Shown one piece after another: positions 57,921 to 60,128 of a DNA stretch of 64,000 nucleotides. Position numbers and translations under genes: made by a program. The notes beneath the pieces were generated by a model. That model searched no databases. It was given only the letters and a program-made list of their open reading frames with translations, and had not been told where the DNA came from. Position 1 is the stretch's first letter; every line of letters starts with the position of its first letter. The DNA is from Deltaproteobacteria bacterium (GTDB lineage Bacteria > Desulfobacterota > Desulfobulbia > Desulfobulbales > Desulfurivibrionaceae). The stretch is from the NCBI GenBank assembly GCA_021802645.1, contig JAJZRO010000001.1, positions 1 to 64,000 of the forward strand, given 5' to 3'.

Positions 57921-58301
57921 ATGCTCGACCACAAGAAGCTGGCGGTCATCCACATCGTCAAAAAGGAACTGGGGCTGACCGACCAGGAATACCGCGACGC
58001 GCTGGAAAAGATCACCGGCGTGCGCTCGGCCAGGGAACTGGACGAGAGGGGCTTCCGCACCCTCATGCGCCATTTCGCCAAGAGCCGCCACTACCGGGTG
58101 AACGCCCGAGGGCTCACCTTCCGCCAGCAGCTCTTCATCAAGCATCTGGTGGACGATCTCGGTTGGGAAGAAACGCACTTCCGCAACTTCCTGCGCAAGT
58201 ACTACAAGCAGGAGGCCGTGGCCGCCCTCAGCCGGCGCGAGGCGAGCAAGGTGATCGAATCATTGAAGCAGATCCTGGCCCACCGCCCGCCGCCAGCCTG
58301 A
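57921..58301 (+). CDS. GemA/Mu Gp16-like protein (DUF1018), orphan
   Basis: 126 residues resembling the phage Mu gp16/GemA family: KLAVIHIVKKELGLTDQEYR near the N-terminus, ITGVRSARELDERGFRTLM and a helical C-terminus (FRNFLRKYYKQE, SKVIESLKQIL). In Mu-like phages such proteins are early regulators that modulate host gene expression and DNA supercoiling. No other phage gene lies within this window, so this is either a domesticated relic or a chromosomal relative. It starts 24 bases after the exporter operon. A weak GACGGAGA precedes the ATG. Confidence 0.82.
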   Translation: MLDHKKLAVIHIVKKELGLTDQEYRDALEKITGVRSARELDERGFRTLMRHFAKSRHYRVNARGLTFRQQLFIKHLVDDLGWEETHFRNFLRKYYKQEAVAALSRREASKVIESLKQILAHRPPPA

Positions 58302-58317
58302 GCATCAGGCTGTTTTC

Positions 58318-58346
58318 TTGACGAAAACGGAAGGGGCGTGTAGAGT
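58318..58346 (+). promoter_or_regulatory. Promoter upstream of prfC leader frame
   Basis: TTGACG (58318-58323), exactly 17-bp spacer, TAGAGT (58341-58346). The predicted start is near 58353, at the leader ATG 58355. Confidence 0.55.
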
Positions 58347-58354
58347 GGCCCGCC

Positions 58355-58420
58355 ATGAAACACCGTACTTTCCCAGCCTTGGACGGCAACCGCGCCCCGC
58401 GTTTCCTGACCCCGCCCTGA
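58355..58420 (+). CDS. Putative 21-residue leader peptide of prfC, ending Pro-Pro-UGA
   Basis: A 22-codon frame that begins 8 bases after the -10 element and ends TGA. Its encoded C-terminus is Leu-Thr-Pro-Pro before UGA. Pro at the last position slows RF-mediated termination, and TnaC, which ends in Pro before UGA, is a known precedent for regulation by stalled termination. Since RF3 acts on termination, this frame upstream of prfC could be an autoregulatory leader. No terminator-like T tract follows; stems at 58439-58472 are possible. Coding status is unproven. Confidence 0.35.
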
Positions 58421-58538
58421 GCAGCCGCTGACCAAGCGGGCCGGACCGCCGCCTTTCCCAGCCACGCCGGCCTGCGCCGCTGTTGCCCAACTGCCTGGCA
58501 GTACCACCCACCATCTGGAATTGACGAGACCACGAATT

Positions 58539-60128
58539 ATGAGCCACCCACCCCGCCACCGGGAAATCGCGCGCCGCCGCACCTTCGGCATCATCAGCCA
58601 CCCCGACGCCGGCAAGACGACGCTCACCGAAAAACTGCTGCTCTTCGGCGGCGCCATCCAGATGGCCGGCTCGGTCAAGGCGCGCAAGGCCAGACGCCAC
58701 GCCACCAGCGACTGGATGGCCATCGAACAGGAGCGCGGCATCTCGGTCACCAGCTCGGTGATGCAGTTCGACTACCGCGACTACGCCATCAACCTGCTGG
58801 ACACCCCCGGCCACCAGGACTTCTCCGAGGACACCTACCGGGTGCTCACCGCGGTGGACAGCGCGGTCATGGTCATCGACAGCGTCAAGGGCGTCGAAAC
58901 CCAGACCCGCAAGCTCATGGAGGTCTGCCGGCTGCGCAACACCCCGATCCTCACCTTCATCAACAAGCTCGACCGCGAGGGCATGACGCCGCTCGCCCTC
59001 CTCTCCGACATCGAAGAGACGTTGCAGATCGAATGCGCGCCGCTCACCTGGCCCATCGGCATGGGCAAGCGCTTCAAGGGCACCTACAACCTCTACCGCA
59101 AGGAGCTCACCCTCTTCACCCCCGGCCAGGAGCGGCTCTCCGACGATACCCTCACCATCCACGACCTCAGCGACCCGCTGCTCGATCAGACCCTGGGCAG
59201 CCAGGCCGACGAGCTGCGCGAGGACATCGCCCTGCTGGAGGGCGCGGCCAACCCCTTCGACCTCCAGGACTTCCTCAAGGGCAGCCAGACCCCGGTCTTC
59301 TTCGGCAGCGCCATCAACAACTTCGGGGTGCGCGAGCTGCTCGACACCTTTGTCGAGATCGCGCCGGCCCCAATGCCGCGCGCCACCACCACCCGCATCG
59401 TATCTCCCGACGAAGAGCCCTTCTCCGGCTTCGTGTTCAAAATCCAGGCCAACATGGACCCGGCCCACCGCGACCGCATCGCCTTCCTGCGCATCTGCTC
59501 GGGCCGCTTTGAGCGGGGCATGCGGGTGCGCCACCACCGGCTGGACAAGGAGATCCTCATCGCCAACCCCATCATCTTCATGGCCCAGGATCGGGCCTTT
59601 GTCGAGGAGGCGTGGCCCGGCGACATCATCGGCATCCACAACCACGGCACCCTGCGCATCGGCGACACCCTGTCGGAAAAGGAGCCGCTCACCTTCACCG
59701 GCATCCCCAACTTCGCGCCCGAGCACTTCCGCCGGGTGCGGCTCAAATCGCCGCTCAAGGCGAAGCAGCTCCAGAAGGGGCTCACTCAGCTGGTGGAGGA
59801 AGGGGCGGTGCAGCTCTTCCGGCCGCTCATCGGCAGCGACAACATCCTGGGCGCAGTGGGGGTCTTGCAGTTCGAGGTGACCATGGCCCGGCTCAAGACC
59901 GAGTATGGCGTCGATGCCACCTATGAGCCGATCAACTACGCCACGGCCCGCTGGGTGCGCTGCGAGGACAAGAAGCGGCTGGAGGCCTTCGAGAAGAGCA
60001 ACCGGGGCGAGCTGGCCCTGGACGCGGAGGGGAACCTGACCTATCTGGCGGAAAGCGAATGGCGGCTCAAGTTCGTGGCCGAGCAGTGGAAGGACATCAC
60101 CTTCTGCAACACCCGCGAGTATCAATAA
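58539..60128 (+). CDS. prfC: Peptide chain release factor 3
   Basis: 529 residues, the same length as E. coli RF3. GTPase motifs: G1 [14 protein letters not shown]2 region [13 protein letters not shown]3 [13 protein letters not shown]4 FINKLDREG. The C-terminal RF3 domain 3 is complete ([30 protein letters not shown]). It recycles RF1/RF2 after peptide release. The ATG at 58539 has no Shine-Dalgarno sequence; a TTG at 58521 is an alternative. A leader frame and possible hairpins lie in the 237-base upstream region. Confidence 0.96.

Follow-up and report, generated by a model that had tools for sequence, protein, structure and literature searches.

The gene for peptide chain release factor 3 (RF3), prfC, is preceded in the window analysed here, a stretch of 64,000 nucleotides from a deltaproteobacterial contig, by a very short frame ending in Thr-Pro-Pro-stop (TPP-stop). 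This arrangement raises the question of whether the frame encodes a cis-acting leader peptide through which RF3 regulates its own synthesis. The preliminary description had placed a promoter, a frame beginning 8 nt past its -10 element and closing on Pro-Pro-stop, and prfC 118 nt beyond the leader stop, and examination of the locus confirms each of these elements at its position (Table 1). Sites matching the sigma-70 consensus at the level of this promoter number 2 in a 5.5-kb scan against 0.6 expected. Given that the ATG lies so close to the -10 element, transcription would begin at or within about 2 bases of the start codon, and the leader is therefore probably leaderless. The PrfC protein scores well above the cut-offs of the RF3 equivalog models (NF001964, 865 bits against 473; TIGR00503, 793 against 467). 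The product of the upstream gene, which we take to be Mu gp16-like, returned no match in an NCBIfam search. The terminator-like hairpin at the end of that gene may insulate the leader-prfC unit; its T run merges with the -35 element of the leader promoter. Across both strands the window contains 873 mini-ORFs of 7-50 codons, 12 of which end in Pro-Pro-stop and only one, the frame ahead of prfC, in TPP-stop.

Table 1. Features of the prfC leader locus (coordinates in the window)
Feature	Coordinates	Strand	Remarks
Leader ORF	58355-58420	+	ATG...CCG-CCC-TGA; 21 residues plus stop; C-terminal NRAPxFLTPP-stop
Promoter-like site	58318-58346	+	TTGACG-17-TAGAGT; 9/12 against sigma-70 consensus
Region between leader stop and prfC	58421-58538	+	Diverged from sister species; C exceeds G
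prfC	58539-60128	+	Peptide chain release factor 3, 529 aa; RF3 equivalog models, PrfC tree
Upstream gene for 126-aa protein	57921-58301	+	Syntenic in sister species, 88% aa identity; outside the leader unit
Terminator-like hairpin, end of upstream gene	58294-58312	+	None seen by eye in sister species

Comparison within the genus pairs the window with its sole other genome (G001). This sister species has the same neighbor gene, the same promoter spacing (TTGACG-17-TATAGT), a 66-nt frame and prfC in the same order, and its leader, MKLCSLPAPARNRAPFFLTPP, retains the NRAPxFLTPP ending with UAA as the stop instead of UGA. The two peptides are 90% identical over their last 10 residues as against 36% over the N-terminal 11. 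At the nucleotide level the last ten codons are identical at 27 of 30 positions, and the region past the leader stop shows 53% identity with 14 gap columns. The binomial probability of 27/30 is 2e-5 at this 53% rate, and 0.06 if the rate is set at 77%, the identity of fourfold sites in the neighbor gene. The conservation between the two species thus shows constraint, which is insufficient by itself to separate a peptide from an RNA element.

An APxFLTPP-stop ending occurs in 2 of 257 genomes of the order, and a search of our genome collection for RAPxFLTPP-stop gave, besides the sister contig, a single further place, which appears by eye to lie inside a gene on the opposite strand and was set aside as a chance match. 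The preliminary description had regarded relatives that keep the promoter and lack the frame as evidence against its proposal; the other family members examined do show this state (genera g3 and g4), but their PrfC proteins belong to another clade. In PrfC trees, which were built by a quick method, the window genus falls outside its own family and in a clade (support 97) with the families f61, f81, f118, f46, f74, f21 and f39. Sequence identity searches agree with this placement, PrfC of the window being up to 82% identical to proteins from other families of the phylum and at most 76% identical to those from other genera of its own family. We infer from this agreement that prfC of the window genus was probably acquired by horizontal transfer, along with its leader. 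Additional prfC copies, 85-86% identical to that of the window, occur in two genomes with two prfC matches each (L035 in G172:C17 and L036 in G121:C83). They may reflect transfer or contig contamination, and no leader was seen in their upstream regions.

Within the PrfC clade of the window, TPP-stop leaders precede prfC in 8 of 11 distinct members (L055, L056, L057, L058, L059, L064 and the window pair); the remaining three (L062, L067 and L145) show no leader within 450 nt ahead of the gene. Further TPP-stop leaders occur at L108, L114 and L135 (family f61, ending RLRQTPP), L144 (f39) and L213 (f101); the 13 TPP-stop regions of this phylum come from 8 families. Kindred endings include APP (L136), NPP (L100, L214 and L215), SPP (L146) and, weakly, RPP (L101), and some related leaders end in QP, QS, QL, PT or PL rather than PP. 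The majority of sampled prfC genes are without such a leader, and none ending in Pro-Pro-stop was seen by eye upstream of E. coli prfC. In the three f61 regions the leader is separated from prfC by some 160 nt containing common blocks, e.g. ACAAGG.CCGG, which perhaps constitute a larger RNA switch.

A second, Bacteroidota-type phylum, sampled starting from a genome labelled Balneolales, contains a PrfC clade with leaders of 12-15 residues. Just 5' of their ATG lies, by eye, a promoter resembling the Bacteroidota consensus. Such leaders are present in all 17 tree members of this clade, with stops that are mostly UAG (e.g. MIILLIHSKLTPP, MIIISSHNRLTPP, MNIRLIQIKLTPP, MMLFLSHITLTQS, MILHFIHITITQL and MTTSSLHRALTPT, each followed by its stop); the PP ending is not universal among them. 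In a sister group (L204-L207), prfC is preceded by different short ORFs that look leaderless (MQVQIHT, MLTQRHT and MILKKKYHIGIHL), and a similar GTAACnnCCTC stretch comes after them. At L203 and L226, leaders ending in TPL or TPP lie far 5' of prfC with a long interval between. Leaders fall in separate PrfC clades, and on the tree the TPP-stop label requires at least two changes across the marked branches. The preliminary description had looked to relatives for conservation of the frame and its ending, and this is borne out by retention in the sister species and by the presence of such leaders before prfC in two phyla.

To gauge this recurrence, we counted mini-ORFs of 7-50 codons whose stop lies no more than 400 nt from prfC, in 160 regions from the window's phylum and 92 from the other. 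Each region was entered once, without duplicates, and E. coli, the single representative of Pseudomonadota, was left out; L037, at a contig end, was unusable, and a TPP-ending frame at L125 was not counted as it has no ATG, GTG or TTG start. The window's phylum has 13/160 TPP-stop regions against a shuffle mean of 0.34, and the Bacteroidota type 10/92 against 0.11, with a shuffle maximum of 2; the reverse-strand control yields 2 and 0, respectively. TPP is the most frequent ending tripeptide of mini-ORFs 5' of prfC in both phyla. The ending terminates 22 of 729 mini-ORFs upstream of prfC as against 4 of 4,036 downstream (Fisher P 7e-15, uncorrected for relatedness; the rows are related and hence are not independent events). 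These measurements were made at prfC, the one termination gene covered.

The codons of the 23 TPP-stop leaders help distinguish a conserved peptide from a conserved DNA word. Threonine is encoded by ACG, ACA, ACC and ACT in 10, 7, 5 and 1 cases, respectively, and all four proline codons occur. In the window's phylum 12 of these leaders stop with UGA and 1 with UAA; in the other, 8 stop with UAG and 2 with UAA. Since all four codons of each amino acid and all three stops are in use, it is the peptide that is kept. Within the window's phylum alone the second proline codon is CCC or CCT in 13/13, and the ending is nearly a single DNA word. The corresponding word YTNACNCCNCCNTRR, encoding TPP-stop preceded by Leu or Phe, shows no genome-wide enrichment in the genome that contains the window (7 occurrences against 8 of a reversed control; 13 genomes were searched). 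The N-termini of the leaders have no common sequence across families. Together these observations show selection at the amino-acid level on TPP-stop, specific to the position ahead of prfC.

The RNA downstream of the leader presents a different picture in the two phyla. The preliminary description had pointed to potential stems between leader and prfC, and had suggested that their altered folding raises prfC translation. This finds no support in the genus, as the leader RNA of both species folds no more stably than shuffled sequence: the window's post-stop region is not more structured than 200 shuffles (z +0.62, 152/200 at least as stable), and the sister region has a z of +1.73. No common RNA fold or shared RNA switch was found between these two species. 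The post-stop leader is richer in C (0.41) than in G (0.25-0.26) in both, which allows Rho action without showing it. Behind the Bacteroidota-type leaders, by contrast with shifted registers (at most 50% standard pairs), an alignment supports a hairpin of 8 pairs, which are standard in 86% of cells and of which 5 have changes on both sides. This hairpin begins 16-19 nt past the leader stop in 12 of 16 regions; L203 and L226, with the leader far from prfC, and L204-L207, with other endings, were omitted from the alignment, and L197 was kept though it has no clear hairpin. In 7/16 the next 10 nt include at least 5 T, and the hairpin may accordingly act as a weak terminator or cause pausing. Its distance from the start of prfC is about 50 nt, which speaks against a switch acting on translation. 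Pyrimidines make up 78% of the 16 nt that follow the leader stop in the Bacteroidota type, where a ribosome paused on the stop codon would extend over part of this stretch, similarly to TnaC, and 55% in the window's phylum.

A distinct arrangement was also observed at prfC in 28 of the 160 regions of the window's phylum, namely a promoter-like -10 element and, within 26 nt, a GC hairpin with a T run and no ORF (e.g. CGGGCCGGAGTTCCGGCCCGTTTTTTT). It occurs in many families (L013, L018, L041, L043, L049, L060, L065, L068, L150-L152 and others) and looks like an alternative attenuator or promoter-proximal terminator. None of the 13 TPP-stop regions of the phylum is among these 28; the one listed overlap, L199, is from the second phylum and has its hairpin behind its leader.

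In light of the above, we consider it rather probable that the frame at 58355-58420 is a cis-acting leader peptide that serves as an RF3-autoregulating gauge of termination at Thr-Pro-Pro-stop. Stalling, RF3 dependence, the direction of the response and control at the level of transcription are all features that we infer. RRF and RF3 are said, by the title of a 2007 paper, to relieve stalling at TnaC. In the proposed mechanism, Thr-Pro-Pro-stop would slow termination, and the dwell time of the terminating ribosome would report the supply of working RF3. When RF3 is ample the ribosome would leave the stop codon and prfC would be held down; when it is short the ribosome would remain, mask an early-termination signal in the leader and permit prfC to be made, constituting a negative feedback. 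Control would be exerted on transcription, through Rho or intrinsic termination in the manner of TnaC, rather than on prfC translation. TnaC-like attenuation is the likelier of these two, given that the stems of the window leader are no better than shuffles, even if the transcription route as a whole is held tentatively and at somewhat less than even confidence.

The link to RF3 fits both the fixed neighbor gene and published data on RF3 and C-terminal proline. According to one study (PMC7246954), RF1 and RF2 alike release peptides slowly when the last residue is proline, EF-P does not change this, and clades without RF3 show a stronger depletion of C-terminal proline. In E. coli, loss of RF3 raises stop-codon occupancy, changes leader-peptide attenuation and lowers expression of attenuated operons (PMC5373646). 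Because of this last effect, the sign of any response would hinge on the RNA design. RF3 and RRF are further reported to promote peptidyl-tRNA drop-off from short chains (PMC10192219). An RF3 gauge would be expected to terminate slowly, to precede prfC and to work with any stop codon, which agrees with the predicted properties of this leader. The broader proposition, that TPP-stop is a general termination-arrest signal in at least two phyla, with any stop and often leaderless, forming a homeostatic RF3 gauge that moves between lineages with prfC, appears to us evenly balanced. A search of open-licence PMC papers found no published account of a prfC leader peptide.

Several other explanations need to be weighed against an RF3 gauge. 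Pro-Pro endings are linked also to EF-P and the class-1 release factors. The peptide might therefore stall in response to an input other than RF3, such as EF-P, RF1 or RF2 supply, RRF or a termination-blocking compound, with RF3 being one output of a termination-stress response. Such a general sensor would give an identical sequence picture, and the joint action of RF3 and RRF in drop-off (PMC10192219) is compatible with it. Yet the spread of stops (UGA in 12/13 or UAG in 8/10, with UAA in both phyla) means that neither RF1 nor RF2 alone fits as the input, and the reported failure of EF-P to speed release after proline (PMC7246954) tells against that factor, leaving this explanation unlikely though still the strongest competitor. 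Alternatively, the RNA could be the sensor, as an attenuator or riboswitch-like element, with the ORF merely coupling a ribosome and the peptide sequence incidental. The covarying Bacteroidota-type hairpin and the 28 regions with a promoter and hairpin but no ORF favor this possibility; however, synonymous change at all TPP codons, varying stops, the lack of a stable fold in the window's leader and the presence of one tripeptide in clades where no common RNA element was seen render it improbable.

A programmed +1 frameshift at CCC-UGA, as in prfB, could fuse the leader to PrfC under slow termination. In the window the +1 frame is indeed open from the leader stop into prfC, and RF3 loss is reported to raise prfB frameshifting (PMC5373646). 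But only 6 of 23 TPP-stop leaders are both in +1 register and open (L001, L056, L057, L173, L195 and L199); the sister species is not among them, and L135 and L144 could not be assigned a frame with certainty. Fusion is thus not a general mechanism, and we hold this explanation to be very improbable. We assign a similarly small likelihood to a free-standing microprotein: translated short ORFs can act in trans and the length is constant within the genus, but the N-terminal half diverges between the two species, no N-termini are shared across families, and every studied copy is in cis to prfC (sampling having been confined to such places). Least credible of all is a chance ORF, for even though short GC-rich frames are as common as the 873 mini-ORFs of the window imply, conservation in the sister species and enrichment ahead of prfC contradict it.

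If the RF3 gauge holds true, RF3 would be the second bacterial release factor whose synthesis measures its own activity, by a route unlike the RF2 frameshift. The control of RF3 levels and the main cellular role of the factor are debated, one paper holding that it functions chiefly in quality control (PMC10192219). A prfC leader tuned to Pro-Pro-stop would imply that in these bacteria RF3 must keep pace with termination after proline, and may explain the stronger depletion of C-terminal proline in clades without RF3. It would also provide a short, transferable readout of termination capacity and allow the job of RF3 to be tested directly.

SecM, MifM and CliM are arrest peptides that control their own effectors and monitor protein export or insertion. 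As in these systems, a nascent chain would report on the activity of the downstream gene's product; unlike them, the prfC leader would monitor termination. The prfB frameshift is similar in that the 5' end of a release-factor gene may serve to measure termination, but the prfC sensor is a separate ORF with no conserved frameshift register. With the trp/ivb/his-type attenuators in RF3 mutants it shares a sensitivity whereby RF3 loss raises stop-codon occupancy and changes attenuation (PMC5373646), although there this is a side effect on biosynthetic operons, whereas in the proposed loop the control would act on prfC. Another parallel is TnaC, which stalls at Pro24-UGA, shields a rut site and has roles for Trp12, Asp16 and Ile19 (PMC8429421). 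Both are short cis-acting leaders ending in Pro-stop; TnaC stalls with proline in the P site and the stop in the A site and governs access to the RNA just downstream (PMC8429421), as is proposed here for the prfC leader. However, the window peptide has neither Trp nor Ile and carries Asn at position 12, and the sister peptide lacks Trp, Asp and Ile. prfC rather than tnaA/tnaB lies downstream, so that the controlled gene is the termination factor itself. Further, prfC leaders have two prolines, use any of three stops, are often leaderless and imply no ligand. In the absence of Trp sensor residues, and with other genes downstream, the prfC leader does not appear to be a member of the TnaC family, nor is it prfB-like. 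It does display the C-terminal conservation, free N-terminus and cis position of the broad class of ribosome-arrest leaders, and we accordingly regard it as a new variant inside that class, with predicted stalling.
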